Source of the DNA: Bacteroidota bacterium
GTDB lineage: Bacteria; Bacteroidota; Bacteroidia; Chitinophagales; Saprospiraceae
Reading direction: 5' to 3'
Length of the DNA: 64,000 bases
Assembly (NCBI GenBank): GCA_963169455.1
Contig: CAUJDW010000162.1
Coordinates: forward strand, 20,357 to 84,356
Within the stretch, counting starts at the first letter, position 1, and the number at the start of each line of letters is the position of its first letter. Shown in pieces: positions 40 to 63,586 of this stretch. The notes beneath the pieces were generated by a model. It saw only the letters and a list, made by a program, of their open reading frames with translations. It did no database searches and was not told the origin of the DNA. The translations under genes were made by a program, and so were the position numbers.

Positions 40-582
40 TCATTTCATTCTAATCAAAATCACCCCCGCCGGAATCACCGTCAGCCCCCCGATCGCCGCC
101 ACCGGCCAATTCAATCCCAGGGCATCCGCGATAATGCCGGTGAGCAGGGCGCCGATGGCGTAGCCCAGGCCGCGCCACAGGCGGAACACGCCGATGCTCT
201 CAGCCCGTTGCTGCGGGTGGGTATAGTCGGCAATGGCCGCCAGGAAGGTAGGGTAAACGATGGCTGTGCCCAGGCCGAGCAGGGCGGAAAGGCTGATCAA
301 TTGCCAGTTGGTTGTTGCAGGGATAAATAACAGTAGCGCCAGCCCCCGCATCAGCATACCCCAGAACAGCATTTTATTTTTGTCCAGGTGATCGGCCAGC
401 TTGCCGGTGAGCAACTGCCCCAGTCCCCAGACGATGGGGTAGATGGAAACCTCCATGCCGCCGACAAATGCGTTGATGCATAGGTGCAGAAAGGGCCGCG
501 GCCAGTCACGGGCTGACTCGCCTTGATTTTGCCAGGGTTCAGTCAGCTCGTGACGCGCAACACCACCACCTTCTGCGCACAA
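40..582 (-). pseudogene. 5'-truncated MFS transporter (C-terminal half)
   Basis: The translation matches the second six-helix half of a major facilitator superfamily transporter: a helix with WGLGQLLTGKLAD, then MLFWGMLMRGLALLLF, LSALLGLGTAIVYP and a final helix near the C-terminus. The family is about 400 residues, but only about 140 look homologous. The N-terminal helices are absent, and the first 40 codons of the open frame overlap the end of the upstream DUF364 gene and look non-homologous. The frame opens with TTG; the first ATG lies at 456, inside the domain. I read it as a deletion remnant joined to the neighbouring gene. A functional half-transporter is unlikely but not excluded. Confidence 0.7.
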
Positions 583-5537: not shown

Positions 5538-5760
5538 CGGCGTCAATAGCATTGTTCCTGGGGCTAGGGGTATATTGTTGGATTGTTATATTGTTGGATT
5601 GTTATATTGTTGGATTGTTATATTGTTGGATTGTTATATTGTTCTGCTAAATATCTCCAGCTACTTATTGCCATTTGCCTTCCGGGTGGGCCGTTCTCTC
5701 CAAGCCATGTTTTCAGCCAGCGATATGACAATATGGCCATATAAGCATACTGAAAGGCAG
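5538..5760. repeat. dispersed repeat, copy A, with four 16-bp core units
   Basis: This 310-bp gap between the SDR and fucP genes contains no credible gene. From 5571 to 5634 the 16-bp unit TATATTGTTGGATTGT is repeated four times without error, followed by a partial unit. The flanks CGGCGTCAATAGCATTGTTC (left) and CTGCTAAAT (right) recur at 17850-17920, where the core is present only once. Around 5725-5745 lies GACAATATGGCCATATAA, related to the array at 17935-18016. The core behaves like a variable-number repeat within a dispersed element. Confidence 0.8.
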
Positions 5761-11325: not shown

Positions 11326-11556
11326 GTGGCCCAGGGGTGTAGAGGCTGCGGCTGTATAGGCCCACTACTGCGTAGGCCCGCGACTGCGTAGGCCCAGGGC
11401 CGTGTAGGCCCACGACTGTGTAGGCCCAGGACCGTGTAGGCCCGCGGCTGCGTAGGCCCAGGGCTGTATAGGCCCACGACTGTTTTGGCCCAGGGCTGTA
11501 TAGGCCCAGGGCTGTGTAGGCCCAGGGCTGTGTAGACCCACGACTGAAGTCGTGGG
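11326..11556. repeat. 16-bp tandem array ending in a perfect hairpin
   Basis: About 14 head-to-tail units of consensus TAGGCCCAGGGCTGTG lie here; 12 full-length units run from 11357 to 11548. Variants alternate, with AGGGCTGTG, CGCGACTGCG and CACGACTGTG endings. The array ends in CCCACGACTGAAGTCGTGGG (11537-11556), a perfect hairpin immediately downstream of the TPR-gene stop codon on the minus strand. It fills the junction between two co-directional genes. The hairpin may stop or stabilise the upstream transcript; the array has no coding role despite open frames through it. Confidence 0.85.
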
Positions 11557-17805: not shown

Positions 17806-18016
17806 GCCATGAGGGCTCTCCGGAAAGTCCGGGAGGGGAGCACGGGAATACGGCGTCATTAGCATTGTTCCTGGGCCTAGGGCCATATTGTTGGATTGTT
17901 ATATTGTTCTGCTAAATGTGTCCAACCACTTACCAATATAACCATATAACAAACAACAATATAGCCATATAACAATATAACAATATAACAATATAGCCAT
18001 ATAACAATATAGCACC
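17806..18016. repeat. dispersed repeat, copy B, plus AT-rich 8-bp-type array
   Basis: 17850-17920 repeats the flanks and core of the element at 5538 (CATTGTTCCTGGGCCTAGGG, one 16-bp core unit, CTGCTAAATGTGTCC). From 17934 to 18014 a run of ATAACAAT/ATAGCCAT units fills the space directly up to the ATG at 18017. The two parts are inverted relative to each other (ATATTGTT versus AACAATAT), so long hairpins can form. The segment 17806-17845 resembles 4067-4112, so the element may be larger. Nothing else is visible in this 283-bp gap. Confidence 0.75.
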
Positions 18017-32624: not shown

Positions 32625-32674
32625 GTCACGGGGTGGCTGAACTATGACAAGATCAAAGCGAGCCACCCCGTGAC
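32625..32674. repeat. isolated copy of the GTCACGGGGTGGCT hairpin
   Basis: GTCACGGGGTGGCT (32625-32638) and AGCCACCCCGTGAC (32661-32674) are perfect 14-bp inverted arms around 22 bases. The same arms build the seven-unit array at 60721-61140. It lies between the two divergent ECF-type promoters; apart from these promoters, the 384-bp gap 32509-32892 shows nothing else. Confidence 0.85.
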
Positions 32675-32822
32675 TTCCTTTCAAGCCTGGCGAGAAAGCC
32701 AGTACACAATTAGAACTTCTGGGAAATCACCCTGGCTGGAACCTGAAAAGCACGATACCCTCAACACTCTGATAATCAACCCGTTGCTGCTTCGTCTTTT
32801 TTTAGTAAAAAAATCCGGGGAA

Positions 32823-54116: not shown

Positions 54117-54161
54117 TTTTGACGACAAATTTAAAAACAATTTTTAAATTTGTCGTCAAAA
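54117..54161 (+). promoter_or_regulatory. 21-bp stem palindrome touching the DUF4143 start codon
   Basis: Arms beginning TTTTGACGACAAATTT (54117-54137) and ending AAATTTGTCGTCAAAA (54141-54161) are perfect inverses with a CAA loop. The right arm ends at the base just before the ATG at 54162. A transcript through here would fold a very stable hairpin at the start codon; in DNA it could also be an operator or recombination-type site. Confidence 0.85.
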
Positions 54162-55319
54162 ATGAAGCTATACCCTCGTTATATTGAAAACACACTCCTT
54201 AAGCGGCTACAAGCTTTTCCGGTTGTTGGGATAACAGGCCCCAGACAGGCTGGAAAAACCACACTGGCAAAATCTATTGTTAAAGAAATCCCCAAAGAGG
54301 CGGTATACCTTGACCTTGAGCTGCCATCCGACCTAAACCGATTGCGTAACGCCGAGTTATTCCTCAAGGAAAATGAGGGGAATCTCGTGGTGATTGACGA
54401 AGTGCAGCGCATACCGGAATTGTTCCCCTTATTGAGGTCACTGGTTGATATGCGGAGGGAGCCGGCCCGTTTTCTTATCCTGGGTTCCGCGTCTCCCGAA
54501 TTGCTGAAGCAAAGTTCGGAGACTCTTGCCGGGCGCATCTCCTATCTGGAACTCACCCCTTTCCATTACCGCGAACTACCTGATATCGATTTCAAAAAAC
54601 ACTGGTTAAGGGGAGGTTTCCCGCCCTCATTGTTTGCTACTGATGAATATCTATCCTTTCAATGGCTGGAAGATTTTGTCACCACATTCATAGAAAGAGA
54701 TTTACCACAATTTGGCCTGAATGCACCGTCTCAGACGCTAAGAAATCTATTGTTAATGCTGACAGGCGCCCATGGGAACCTGCTCAACCAAAGTGCGTTG
54801 GCCAATTCTCTTGGCCTGACTATGCCTACGGTAAAGCGGTATCTATCCTATTTGGAAAATGCCTACTTTATAAGGTTTCTTTCCCCCTGGTTTGCCAATG
54901 TCAGCAAGCGATTGGTGAAAACGCCCAAAATTTATTTTCGGGACAGCGGGGTATTGAACTACCTTGCAGGCATCTCTGAAATGAATCAGTTATTAGGTAG
55001 TCTATTAGCCGGAGCATCCTGGGAGGGATATGTTTTGCAGCAGATCATCGCCAACTTGCCTTCTAACGTTTTGCCCTATTTTTACAGGACCAAAGACGGT
55101 TCCGAGTTAGACCTTGTCCTTGTCAAAGGAGCCCGTCCTATCCTGGCAATTGAAATGAAGATATCAAGCCGGCCTTCTTTAAACCGGGGAAATCGTTTTG
55201 CCCTTGCAGACTTAGGCAACCCACCTGCGATTATTATATCCCCTGCTTCGGGAGATTATCCTCTGGAGAAAAATGTCAGGGTATGCCACTTGGAACATTT
55301 TTGGGATTACTTACCTTGA
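54162..55319 (+). CDS. DUF4143-containing AAA ATPase
   Basis: About 385 residues. The AAA N-terminal part has Walker A GPRQAGKTTLAK and Walker B-like NLVVIDEVQRIPELFP, followed by LILGSASPELL. The C-terminal DUF4143 region has FRDSGVLNYLAG, ASWEGYVLQQIIA and the nuclease-like signature DGSELDLVLV...AIEMK. Such proteins are common in Bacteroidota and archaea, with unknown function. It is more AT-rich than most of the window, suggesting transfer. A second, divergent relative lies at 62414. I use ATG 54162, directly after the palindrome. Confidence 0.88.
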   Translation: MKLYPRYIENTLLKRLQAFPVVGITGPRQAGKTTLAKSIVKEIPKEAVYLDLELPSDLNRLRNAELFLKENEGNLVVIDEVQRIPELFPLLRSLVDMRREPARFLILGSASPELLKQSSETLAGRISYLELTPFHYRELPDIDFKKHWLRGGFPPSLFATDEYLSFQWLEDFVTTFIERDLPQFGLNAPSQTLRNLLLMLTGAHGNLLNQSALANSLGLTMPTVKRYLSYLENAYFIRFLSPWFANVSKRLVKTPKIYFRDSGVLNYLAGISEMNQLLGSLLAGASWEGYVLQQIIANLPSNVLPYFYRTKDGSELDLVLVKGARPILAIEMKISSRPSLNRGNRFALADLGNPPAIIISPASGDYPLEKNVRVCHLEHFWDYLP

Positions 55320-59625: not shown

Positions 59626-59651
59626 ATTTGTTGTCAGCCAAACCTGCTCCA

Positions 59652-60719
59652 ATGCATACCCCCATCAAAATCCTCGTCGCCGGATGTGGCAACATGGGCG
59701 CCTCCCACGCCAGAGCTTACCATAAAATGCCGGAATTCGAGATCGTGGGCCTTGTCAGCCGCGGGCCGGAGAGCCGGCAGGCGCTCTCCCGCGAACTGGG
59801 CGGCTACCCGGAATTCGGCAGCTTCGACGAAGCCCTGGCCGCCACCCGCCCCGATGCCGTATCCATCAACACCTACCCGGATACGCATGCCGAATACGTC
59901 AAAAAAGCACTGGCCGCCGGTGCGCACGTTTTTGTAGAGAAACCCCTGGCCACTACGGTCGAAGAATGCCTGGAGATTCAGGAAATGGTGCGGCAAACGG
60001 GCAAAAAGCTGGTGGTGGGTTACATCCTGCGCGTGCACCCCGCCTGGGCGAAGTTCATCGAGATCGCCAAAGGGCTGGGCAAGCCTCTGGTGATGCGCAT
60101 GAACCTCAACCAGCAGAGCCACGGCGCGGCCTGGGAAACGCACAAAAAGCTGATGGACTCCATGTCGCCCATCGTGGACTGCGGCGTGCACTACGTGGAT
60201 GTCATGTGCCTGATGACGGGCGCCCGGCCCGTATCTGTCAGCGCCATCGGCGCGCGCCTGTCGGATGAACTGATACCCGGCATGTACAACTACGGCCAGC
60301 TCCAGGTGCGCTTCGGCGACGGCTCGGTGGGCTGGTACGAAGCGGGCTGGGGGCCGATGATGAGCGAAACGGCTTATTTCGTGAAAGATGTCATCGGGCC
60401 GAAAGGCTGCGTCAGCATCGCGGACAAGCCAGGCCCGGAGGCATCGGATAATGTGGACAGCCATACGGCCACCAACGCCCTGCGGGTTCACTTCAGCGAA
60501 ACAATGGCGGACGGCCGCTTCGCCCGTGCGGATGAATGGGTGAATACCGAGGACGAGCCCGATCACCAGGGGCTCTGCGATCTGGAACAGGCATTTTTCC
60601 TCAACGCTATCCAACATGATGTGGATCTGAGCGCCCACCTGGCCGACGCTATCAACAGCCTCCGCATCGTCCTGGCGGCCGACGAGTCGGTGAAGACGGG
60701 GAAAACAGTGTATCTATAG
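59652..60719 (+). CDS. Gfo/Idh/MocA-family oxidoreductase
   Basis: 355 residues. Rossmann start (IKILVAGCGNMGASHARAYH), the EKPLATTVEE loop (catalytic-type Lys in EKP) and a C-terminal beta-sheet domain including VDCGVHYVDVMCLM with the catalytic-type His. Such enzymes oxidise or reduce sugars and inositols with NAD(P). The substrate is unknown. The track's 59628 start is a TTG; I use ATG 59652. A 60-bp repeat array begins two bases after its stop codon. Confidence 0.88.
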   Translation: MHTPIKILVAGCGNMGASHARAYHKMPEFEIVGLVSRGPESRQALSRELGGYPEFGSFDEALAATRPDAVSINTYPDTHAEYVKKALAAGAHVFVEKPLATTVEECLEIQEMVRQTGKKLVVGYILRVHPAWAKFIEIAKGLGKPLVMRMNLNQQSHGAAWETHKKLMDSMSPIVDCGVHYVDVMCLMTGARPVSVSAIGARLSDELIPGMYNYGQLQVRFGDGSVGWYEAGWGPMMSETAYFVKDVIGPKGCVSIADKPGPEASDNVDSHTATNALRVHFSETMADGRFARADEWVNTEDEPDHQGLCDLEQAFFLNAIQHDVDLSAHLADAINSLRIVLAADESVKTGKTVYL

Positions 60720-60720
60720 C

Positions 60721-61140
60721 TGTCACGGGGTGGCTGATCCGAGTACAACCCGGCAAGCCACCCCGTGACTGGCCAGGGAAAGTCCCGGGGTGGCTGATCC
60801 GAGTACAACCCGGCAAGCCACCCCGTGACTGCCCGGGGAAAGTCCCGGGGTGGCTGATCAGAGTACAACCTGGCAAGCCACCCCGTGACTGCCCGGGGAA
60901 AGTCCCGGGGTGGCTGATCAGAGTATAACCCGGCAAGCCACCCCGGGACTGGCCGGGGAAAGTCACAGGGTAGCTGATCCGAGTACAACCCGGCAAGCCA
61001 CCCCGTGACTGGCCAGGGAAAGTCACAGGGTGGCTGATCAGAGTATAACCCGGCAAGCCACCCCGTGACTGGCCAGGGAAAGTCCCGGGGTGGCTGATCC
61101 GAGTACAACCCGGCAAGCCACCCCGTGACTGGCCGTGACT
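60721..61140. repeat. seven-unit hairpin array with 60-bp period
   Basis: Seven consecutive units start at 60721, 60781, 60841, 60901, 60961, 61021 and 61081, each exactly 60 bp. Every unit has a left arm like GTCACGGGGTGGCT and a right arm like AGCCACCCCGTGAC around GATCCGAGTACAACCCGGCA. Unit 4 has a compensated change (GTCCCGGGG with CCCCGGGAC). The right arm of one unit also pairs with the left arm of the next across about ten bases. The array fills the 455-bp gap between the oxidoreductase stop and the NupG-like start; only about 30 bp before the ATG are non-repeat. Confidence 0.95.
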
Positions 61141-61174
61141 GGCCTGTAGCCGGCAAAAAACAAAACGAAATAAC

Positions 61175-62383
61175 ATGACAAGCGGAACGAGAATCCAACT
61201 TTCCATCATGATGTTCCTCCAGTTCTTCATCTGGGGGGCCTGGTACGTGGTGATGGGCACCTATCTGTTCAGGATAGGTTTTGACGGACTGAACATCGGG
61301 GCGGCCTTCAGCACAGTGAACTGGGGGGCCATCCTCTCCCCCTTCTTCATCGGCGTGATCGCCGACCGCTTTTTCTCCTCCGAAAAAGTGATGGCCGTGT
61401 TGCACATTATCGGCGGAGGGCTGCTCTGGATCGTTTCCGGCATTCTGGAGCCGGGCGCATTCTTCTGGGTTCTGCTGGCTTATGCCGTATTATACATGCC
61501 TACTCTGGGCCTGGCCAACGCCATCAGTTTTTACCAGATGGATCATCCCGGCAGGGAATTCCCCCGCATCCGGGTGCTGGGCACCATAGGCTGGATCGTG
61601 GCCGGGCTGATCATCGGTTTCCTGGAGGTGGAGGACACCAATACCCCCTTCCGGATTGCAGCCGGCGCCTCTCTCCTTTTGGGCATTTACGCTTTTTTCC
61701 TGCCCCACACCCCGCCCAAAGACAAAGGCAAAGCCGTTTCTTTTTCGGACATCATTGGGCTGGATGCGCTGCAACTGATGAAAAACCGCAGCTTCGCCAT
61801 CTTCATCCTCAGCTCCCTGCTGATCTCCATACCCCTGGCTTTTTACTTCAGCTTCACCAACCCCTTCCTGAATGAGATGGGCATGGAGAACACCGCCGCC
61901 AAAATGACCCTGGGCCAGGCCTCGGAGATCATATTCATGCTGCTCATGCCCTTTTTCTTTGTCCGCCTGGGCGTCAAAAAGATGATCCTGATCGGCATGC
62001 TGGCCTGGGCGCTCCGCTATTTCATGTTCGCCTACGGCAACAACGAAGAGCTGGCGGCCATGTTCTACCTGGGCATCATCCTGCACGGCGTCTGTTACGA
62101 CTTCTTCTTCGTGACGGGGCAGATATACGTGGACAATGCTGCGCCCCGCGCCATTCAGGCCAGCGCCCAGGGCTTCATCACCCTGATCACCTACGGCGTC
62201 GGCATGCTGATCGGCTCCTGGACGGCCGGCTGGGTGGTCGAACAGTACACCCTCAGCGACGGCAGCCACCTCTGGACGAGCATCTGGCTGGCGCCGGCAT
62301 TTCTGGCGCTGGGCATCAGTATCCTCTTCGTGATCTTCTTCAGGGAGCCGAAGGGCGTGGAGGCGCCGGAGGGGATGATTTGA
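61175..62383 (+). CDS. nucleoside:H+ symporter (NupG-type MFS)
   Basis: 402 residues with 12 hydrophobic segments. The N-terminus has FLQFFIWGAWYVVMGTYLF and FSTVNWGAILSPFFIGVIADRFF. NupG-family pieces follow: QMDHPGREFPRIRVLGTIGWIVAG and VTGQIYVDNAAPRAIQASAQGF. It imports nucleosides with protons across the inner membrane, or a related small substrate. It follows the oxidoreductase on the same strand behind the 60-bp array, which any shared transcript must cross. Confidence 0.85.
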   Translation: MTSGTRIQLSIMMFLQFFIWGAWYVVMGTYLFRIGFDGLNIGAAFSTVNWGAILSPFFIGVIADRFFSSEKVMAVLHIIGGGLLWIVSGILEPGAFFWVLLAYAVLYMPTLGLANAISFYQMDHPGREFPRIRVLGTIGWIVAGLIIGFLEVEDTNTPFRIAAGASLLLGIYAFFLPHTPPKDKGKAVSFSDIIGLDALQLMKNRSFAIFILSSLLISIPLAFYFSFTNPFLNEMGMENTAAKMTLGQASEIIFMLLMPFFFVRLGVKKMILIGMLAWALRYFMFAYGNNEELAAMFYLGIILHGVCYDFFFVTGQIYVDNAAPRAIQASAQGFITLITYGVGMLIGSWTAGWVVEQYTLSDGSHLWTSIWLAPAFLALGISILFVIFFREPKGVEAPEGMI

Positions 62384-62413: not shown

Positions 62414-63586
62414 TCAGAATCCGAATAAATTGGAAAGCTCATTTATTCCAATTGCATTAACATCTTCAGAGAGCGGGAATCCCGATTCAATCGGGCAAAT
62501 GACGAAATGTTTTTGCGTTTTCAGGTCTTCCCGGGCAATATGAGAACCTCTGGACAGTATGGGGGTGGAGGAGTATTTAATTTCCACCAGGATTTCGGGC
62601 TTACCCCCCCTTGTGATAACCAGGTCGGCTTCTGTTCCCTGATGGGTTCGATAGAAATACAGCTCTGCCCAGTCTGGCAAGATCGCAGCTATTTGCTCAA
62701 TAACATAAGTTTCCCAGGAAGCCCCCAACATAGGATGCCCTGCCAGTTCGAAAAGAGAAGGGATACCGAGTAGCTGATGAAGTATTCCTGTATCACGAAT
62801 ATAAATCTTGGGTGTTTTGACCAACCGCTTTTTCAGGTTAGCGAAAAAAGGCTGAAGCCTTCGAACCAGGTAGGCGGATTCAAAGAAATCCAGATATTTC
62901 CTGACCGTTGTGCCGTGAATACCGAGGGACCCGGAGAGGGCTTCCAGATTGAGCAGGTTGCCACTGAGGTGTGCAACCATTTGCCAAAGCCTTCCAGTGA
63001 GTATAGGGTCAGCATTCAAGCCTAGCAGCGGCAGGTCTCTTTCCAGATAGGTTTTAATGAAGTTTCGCCGCCACAACCCGGCTAATTCGTCATTTGGTGC
63101 GAGCAGAGATGGGGGAAACCCTCCCCTGAACCAATGTGTGCGGTGGCCCGTCAGAGTATGGATCTCATCCCAATAGAACGGCTTCAACTCATGGTAGGCG
63201 ATCCTGCCTGCCAGTGATTCCGAGGTGTCTCCTATTAAATCCGGAGAAGCGCTCCCAAGTAGGATAAAACGCCCAGGTTTTCGGTCACGGTCAATGATTC
63301 CTCTCAACTCAGGGAAGAGTTCCGGTGCTTTTTGTACTTCGTCGAGGATAACCGTTTGACCAGAGAGTGTATCCAGAAACAGGGAAGGATTATTCAATTT
63401 GGCGAGGTCGCCCGGGTTTTCCAAATCTAAATAAACGGACGGCTTGTCCAACTGGGATCGGATGGCTTTCACCAGAGAGGTCTTGCCGGCTTGCCGGGGC
63501 CCCACCACCGCTACCGCAGGAAAATAAGAAATCAGTTTTAAGATTTCGGCTTCGGCTATTCGGGGAATGTAATTATTATTAACCAT
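62414..63586 (-). CDS. DUF4143-containing AAA ATPase, second copy
   Basis: 390 residues. Walker A GPRQAGKTSLVKAI and Walker B TVILDEVQKAPELFP with FILLGSASPDLIG in the AAA part. The C-terminal region has IRDTGILHQLLG, ASWETYVIEQIAA and GTEADLVITRGGKPEILVEIK, the nuclease-like metal motif. It resembles the gene at 54162 in order but differs clearly in sequence, so it is a paralogue or an independent arrival. Convergent with the NupG-type gene. ATG 63586 is the start. Confidence 0.88.
   Translation of the reverse strand: MVNNNYIPRIAEAEILKLISYFPAVAVVGPRQAGKTSLVKAIRSQLDKPSVYLDLENPGDLAKLNNPSLFLDTLSGQTVILDEVQKAPELFPELRGIIDRDRKPGRFILLGSASPDLIGDTSESLAGRIAYHELKPFYWDEIHTLTGHRTHWFRGGFPPSLLAPNDELAGLWRRNFIKTYLERDLPLLGLNADPILTGRLWQMVAHLSGNLLNLEALSGSLGIHGTTVRKYLDFFESAYLVRRLQPFFANLKKRLVKTPKIYIRDTGILHQLLGIPSLFELAGHPMLGASWETYVIEQIAAILPDWAELYFYRTHQGTEADLVITRGGKPEILVEIKYSSTPILSRGSHIAREDLKTQKHFVICPIESGFPLSEDVNAIGINELSNLFGF

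Follow-up and report, generated by a model that had tools for sequence, protein, structure and literature searches.

The seven-unit tandem array that lies between an oxidoreductase gene and a permease gene in this Saprospiraceae genome is best explained as the head-to-tail expansion of a REP-like mobile element associated with a RAYT (REP-associated tyrosine transposase, HUH family), a reading to which we assign a probability of roughly 0.9. Single copies of the same element are scattered through the genome and flank a RAYT gene, and we therefore regard the element as primarily a REP-like mobile element. The initial annotation of the window (the whole stretch of 64,000 nucleotides that was analyzed) had offered a recombination hotspot, a protein-binding array or an RNA structure between two operon genes; its lead toward single copies and a transposase was the right one, whereas nothing found here demonstrates a dedicated regulatory-RNA or protein-binding function. 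Several observations stand against the preferred explanation, among them the near-absence of a GT[AG]G foot, the hairpin loop of about 20 nt, RAYT scores under the curated cut-offs and the carriage of most inverted pairs by a separate MITE.

The array occupies positions 60722–61141 of the window on the plus strand, in a single orientation and with a 60-bp period, and the covariance model described below returns seven plus-strand matches there, of 58.0–68.1 bits. Tandem Repeats Finder delimits it as 60722–61134 (period 60, 6.9 copies, 93% matches, score 700), and a repeat search of the window gives seven copies spaced by exactly 60 bp, a count that comes from a draft assembly of 162 contigs, many of which end in this repeat, and that may differ from the true number; the seven hairpins with 14-bp arms read earlier from the letters are thus borne out. 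Each unit consists of GTCACGGGGTGGCT, 20 nt, AGCCACCCCGTGAC and 12 nt. In unit 1 (60722–60769, plus strand) the two arms, of 14 nt each (60722–60735 and 60756–60769), are 100% complementary across a 20-nt loop and are followed by the foot TGGCC and then AGGGAAA. Unit 4 (60902–60949, plus strand) is free of internal mismatches and carries the compensated base change that had been noticed in one unit, an A-T to C-G exchange at stem position 4 that yields GTCCC/GGGAC; the left-arm C of this pair also occurs in units 2, 3 and 7, where it is unpaired. At the end of the array (61116–61141, plus strand) the right arm of unit 7 is followed by a short duplication, GTGACTGGCC GTGACTGGCC, in place of the linker. 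Units inside the array are 93% alike, compared with an average of 71% to other genomic copies, which indicates that the array grew in place by local amplification.

As had been claimed, the array begins two bases beyond a stop codon and ends shortly before a co-directional gene. The stop codon (TAG, 60717–60719) belongs to a gene for a Gfo/Idh/MocA-family oxidoreductase (59628–60719, plus strand; PF01408, E 1.9e-29), and the ATG of a nucleoside:H+ symporter-type MFS permease gene (61175–62383, plus strand; PF03825, E 8.8e-127) lies at 61175, 33–40 bp beyond the array end rather than about 30 bp. Both genes are given as context only. The sugar-utilization cluster to which they belong, with a pfkB kinase, GH32 and HAD in addition to the oxidoreductase and the permease, is bracketed by two ORFs that look alike (389 aa, 54150–55319, plus strand; 390 aa, 62414–63586, minus strand); both have a GPRQAGKT nucleotide-binding motif and by eye are AAA+-type ATPases. 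Elsewhere, the window holds a tandem array of 12 copies in 16-, 32- and 64-bp units (CTGTGTAGGCCCACGA) at 11352–11546, and two AT-rich short-period tandem arrays at 5571–5643 (TATATTGTTGGATTGT) and 17934–18011 (CAATATAA).

The same arms can also pair between neighboring units, as for 60756–60770 and 60781–60795, which lie 10 nt apart and are 93% complementary. Arm mismatches inside units 1 to 7 number 0, 1, 1, 0, 2, 1 and 1, and those between successive units 1, 1, 1, 3, 1 and 1; hairpin energies range from −21 to −34 kcal/mol within units compared with −14 to −27 kcal/mol between them, the within-unit hairpin being usually, not always, the stronger. The RNA fold of 60700–61180 has a z-score of −11.4 against 100 shuffles, none of which was equally stable, and is therefore not a product of chance. 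Two mutually exclusive folds had been proposed: both pairings are real, the one between units having the shorter loop, but when the transcript is folded as a whole, the structure of lowest energy matches neither simple form and is instead a long nested pairing over several units. Pairing between units is the automatic result of placing palindromes in tandem and calls for no special explanation. No match was found in plasmid records.

Single-unit forms, whose presence across the genome the initial annotation had proposed as a check, are abundant. A query with one unit gave 69 matches in the 6.77-Mb genome; when copies were fetched, aligned and made into a covariance model, at least 146 matches were obtained at E ≤ 0.01, and those listed comprise at least 144 non-overlapping elements in 103 clusters. 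Singletons make up 79 of these 103 listed clusters and plus/minus pairs another 12, while the rest include direct arrays, which occur on contigs C162 (the window), C72, C18, C93, C47, C111/C52, C6 and C112. Two single copies lie within the window itself, at 501–554 (minus strand; 66.7 bits, E 8e-14) and 32625–32678 (plus strand; 65.9 bits, E 1e-13). With genes called by codon usage, 90 of the 103 listed clusters (87%) fall between genes, although the coding fraction is 0.83 (P ~ 3e-54). The element is thus a REP in being a short imperfect palindrome, high in copy number and mainly extragenic; the prevailing single copies, the seven direct copies of the array and the enclosure of most plus/minus pairs in a MITE (see below) do not conform to a REPIN.

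This distribution bears on the reading of the array as a functional RNA, transcribed with the upstream gene and protecting the mRNA or tuning permease expression through its alternative folds, which we consider unlikely. The array is intergenic, on the same strand as the two co-directional genes that flank it, its fold is very stable, and single-orientation elements between co-directional genes are sense in 27 cases and antisense in 12. However, the element is found before and behind unrelated genes in every arrangement (45 codirectional, 15 convergent and 12 divergent), the array has no match in Rfam, and at 12 homologous permease loci examined in relatives both the element and the upstream oxidoreductase gene are missing; this last result fits a lineage-specific insertion and gives no date for it. 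Transcription of a hairpin array behind a stop codon could have incidental consequences for the mRNA, and any effect on the neighboring transcript would be secondary.

Somewhat less probable again is an array kept for protein binding or recombination, with the units serving gyrase, IHF or a nucleoid protein as BIME-like sites. REPs are reported to be bound by IHF, Pol I and gyrase (PMC6006769), and arrays do occur at several loci in this genome; against this, neither a dedicated site nor a conserved position turned up, and among 398 genomes of the same family (Saprospiraceae), 389 lack a match to the covariance model.

The boundaries of the mobile unit can be read from the copies themselves. 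When 82 copies whose flanks are unrelated are compared in an information profile, conservation runs from position −6 (GG[AG]NAA) to TGGCC and then ends, defining a unit of about 59–62 nt that comprises GG(A/G)NAA, a hairpin with 14–15-bp arms, and TGGCC. The linkers of direct arrays measure 8 bp on C162, C72 and C18 and 9 bp on C47 and C111/C52, five independent loci at which such a junction equals one complete element plus 1–2 nt; arrays other than that of the window have periods of 62 and 80 bp, and copies of 52–54 nt occur. Of 142 elements, none has GT[AG]G at the 5′ foot and two have it at the 3′ foot, and the CGTC tag is absent from the commonest feet. What is retained at the foot is AG/CT (3′ CT in 131 of 142), and the form in this genome is xxAG/CTGG around a hairpin with a loop of about 20 nt. 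Nearly devoid of the GT[AG]G tag, the family is classed as a REP-like variant and not as a canonical GTAG REP. No target-site duplication was found at 82 independent stand-alone copies, which fits HUH and not DDE transposition.

Covariation among genomic copies, the absence of which had been named as an argument against a structural role, was detected. In the alignment of copies, 94.5% of stem cells are paired, and double-sided changes (G-C to A-T, C-G to G-C) affect three stem pairs in 11 cells; none of 500 shuffles was as high in cells, score or percentage. Part of this covariation is inherited by copies of composite repeats, and the changes therefore do not represent that many independent events.

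The neighboring REP-associated transposase that was to be sought in the genome was found on contig C64, where the minus strand encodes a RAYT 189 aa long that contains the HFH and Tyr motifs (386–955 of locus L039). The RAYT of a related locus, searched against the window's own genome with tblastn, matched C64:443–955 at E 2.4e-40 with 47% identity. Elements of the family lie on both sides of the gene (61–348 and 988–1113; at least six copies, in alternating orientation), which is the arrangement of a REPtron, and the protein keeps PNHFH and YIHENP, the HUH motif and the catalytic tyrosine. Its match to NF047646 (E 4e-11, 42.9 bits) falls under the cut-off of 80, as does that to PF01797 (E 0.005, 17.4 bits) under the cut-off of 23, and the gene escaped a search with the Pfam Y1_Tnp model at E 0.001. 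The PF01797 search returned four other Y1 genes in this genome, none flanked by the window element, and had suggested an orphan family; the tblastn match at C64 overturned that view. The C64 RAYT has no internal hairpin.

Other Y1 genes are accompanied by repeats of different kinds. Another RAYT, on contig C104 (L249:1252–1956), has an apparent in-frame internal hairpin of the GGGATTCCATCGC / GCGATGGAATCCC type, read from repeated DSIA/DGIP residues, and a hairpin of this type also occurs at L048:1936–1974, near another Y1 gene. Tandem repeats of about 50 bp (GCCAACGATCCCAACGGGATCGAACATCTATAGCAAAGCC) lie beside a different Y1 transposase gene (L046:1–435 and 1860–2130; L048:1200–1500; contigs C151 and C3), and a third RAYT is flanked by AACCCGCGAGGTTT palindromes (L049:1270–1336 and 1977–2031; C113).

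Relatives extend the association between hairpin and transposase. The closest RAYT homologues in related Bacteroidota have cognate GTCACGGGGTGACT-type hairpins at or inside the gene, with examples at the best homologues of the C64 RAYT including TAGTCACGGGGTGACTTTAAGTCACCCCGTGACTA, TACTCACGGGGTGGCTCAAAGCCACCCCGTGAGTA and GTAGTGTCGGGGTGACTGACAGTCACCCCGACACTAC; these cognate hairpins mostly have 3-nt loops, compared with about 20 nt here. Related hairpins were seen beside or inside the RAYT gene in seven genomes (G423, G424, G428, G422, G412, G268 and G144), and the locus in G412 shows GTAG...CTAC double feet. In a scan of 84,980 species the exact-arm pattern was confined to 11 contigs, all from Bacteroidota; the Saprospiraceae contigs among them coincide with the relatives G412, G159 and G268, and in two of the 11 contigs a RAYT adjoins the hairpin, one having a second hairpin inside the gene. 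In a tree, the C64 RAYT joins the RAYTs with cognate hairpins (support 89/86), and the three other RAYTs of this genome, together with RAYTs that have unrelated hairpins, fall outside that group. Two members of the group depart from the pattern: in G159_C352 no such hairpin was seen in the vicinity of the gene, and the hairpin of G019_C69, GTGGCCAGGCGACT, is a more distant one. The GTGAAGGGGTGACT hairpins of G157 and G227, a related-looking family, have no cognate RAYT beside them at the loci examined. On contig C13 of G227 (L294), about five tandem GCGACGC-type hairpins of about 69 bp lie within some 350 bp upstream of a different kind of RAYT, so that direct arrays of hairpins close to a gene of this type are seen a second time.

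A further possibility is that the hairpins are the terminal inverted repeats of a MITE derived from a DDE transposon, which we judge very improbable for the family as a whole. A 222-bp (202–277) MITE with the ends GTACCTATTTAGG...CTAAACAGTTAC does enclose an inverted pair of the element (L042, L157, L162, L163, L173, L178 and L180, on contigs C70, C3, C142, C37, C122, C8 and C110), with perfect 8-bp target duplications at 7 of 10 copies. Duplications of 8 bp are the length known for IS66-type elements. The ends GTACCTATTTAGG / CTAAACAGTTAC are the MITE's own, however, and enclose the hairpins from outside. Neither these ends nor target-site duplications occur at the stand-alone copies or the array, and a MITE origin of the stand-alone copies is rejected on the strength of the 82 independent copies described above. 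Most of the 12 plus/minus pairs lie inside this MITE, so part of the element's spread was not driven by the RAYT. One composite repeat that surrounds the element also exists in versions free of it, as would fit the gain of a unit of about 69 bp.

A coding repeat, suggested by a period divisible by three and by two reverse-strand frames that run through the array without a stop (280 and 202 aa, with 20-residue repeats), can be dismissed, since periods of 62 and 80 bp and copies of 52–54 nt elsewhere break any frame, no gene is called there by codon usage, and the variable sites have no clear codon-position pattern. An integron attC array and a CRISPR were rejected on anatomy, the former for want of attC core sites and the latter because all unit columns are conserved and there are no spacers.

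For the RAYT-associated element, we suggest the following course. The C64 RAYT, as an HUH/Y1 transposase, would spread copies through single-stranded DNA, recognizing the hairpin with its AG/CT foot, cutting and rejoining; in other REPtrons this part of the foot is associated with cleavage at CT (PMC8266576). One copy probably landed just behind the oxidoreductase stop codon and would then have been amplified locally to seven by replication slippage, unequal recombination or head-to-tail joining defined by the element ends. Because the 8–9-bp junctions at five loci amount to one element plus 1–2 nt, it is possible that the transposase system is what builds the arrays, the RAYT joining new copies precisely end to end as opposed to random duplication, a proposal that we hold only tentatively. 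Such joining might proceed by insertion at an element end or by integration of a head-to-tail intermediate.

No description of REPs in Saprospiraceae was found in the literature searched. The present genome brings together a family of REPs and the candidate RAYT for it, a transposase that standard Pfam thresholds miss. The family has drifted from the GTAG guide, is still abundant and forms precise head-to-tail arrays, so that a single system allows both the dependence on the guide and the formation of arrays to be tested.

E. coli BIMEs are mosaic clusters of palindromes in alternating orientation; the copies around the C64 RAYT alternate likewise, whereas the window array has one orientation. 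TnpAY1 subclass 2.4, abundant in Bacteroidetes, is described as having double feet and hairpins both next to the transposase gene and within it (PMC6006769). The resemblance to that description lies in the single-domain HUH/Tyr transposase, in REPs on both sides of its gene and, in close relatives, in REPs in frame inside the gene between the HUH and Tyr motifs; internal or double-foot REPs of this kind occur in G412, G422, G423, G424 and G428 and not at the C64 RAYT. Relative to the same description, the foot here is xxAG/CTGG and not GT[AG]G, and the loop is about 20 nt long. With the GTAG- and CGTC-tagged REP superfamilies (PMC3733652) the family shares extragenic palindromes, dimers and a location mostly between codirectional or convergent genes, but it has neither tag and its hairpin is longer than their 20–40 bp range. 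A parallel to the array comes from Pseudomonas fluorescens SBW25, in which ordered tandem arrays of near-identical REPs/REPINs, including their flanks, have been ascribed to a second mechanism (PMC3116915). Both are tandem runs of near-identical REPs, but SBW25 alternates GI and GIII REPs at 72/112 bp, whereas single elements are joined head to tail here by 8–9-bp linkers. Tandem REP arrays are thus already known from Pseudomonas, and the array in the window is mobile DNA of a known kind in an unusual local form.
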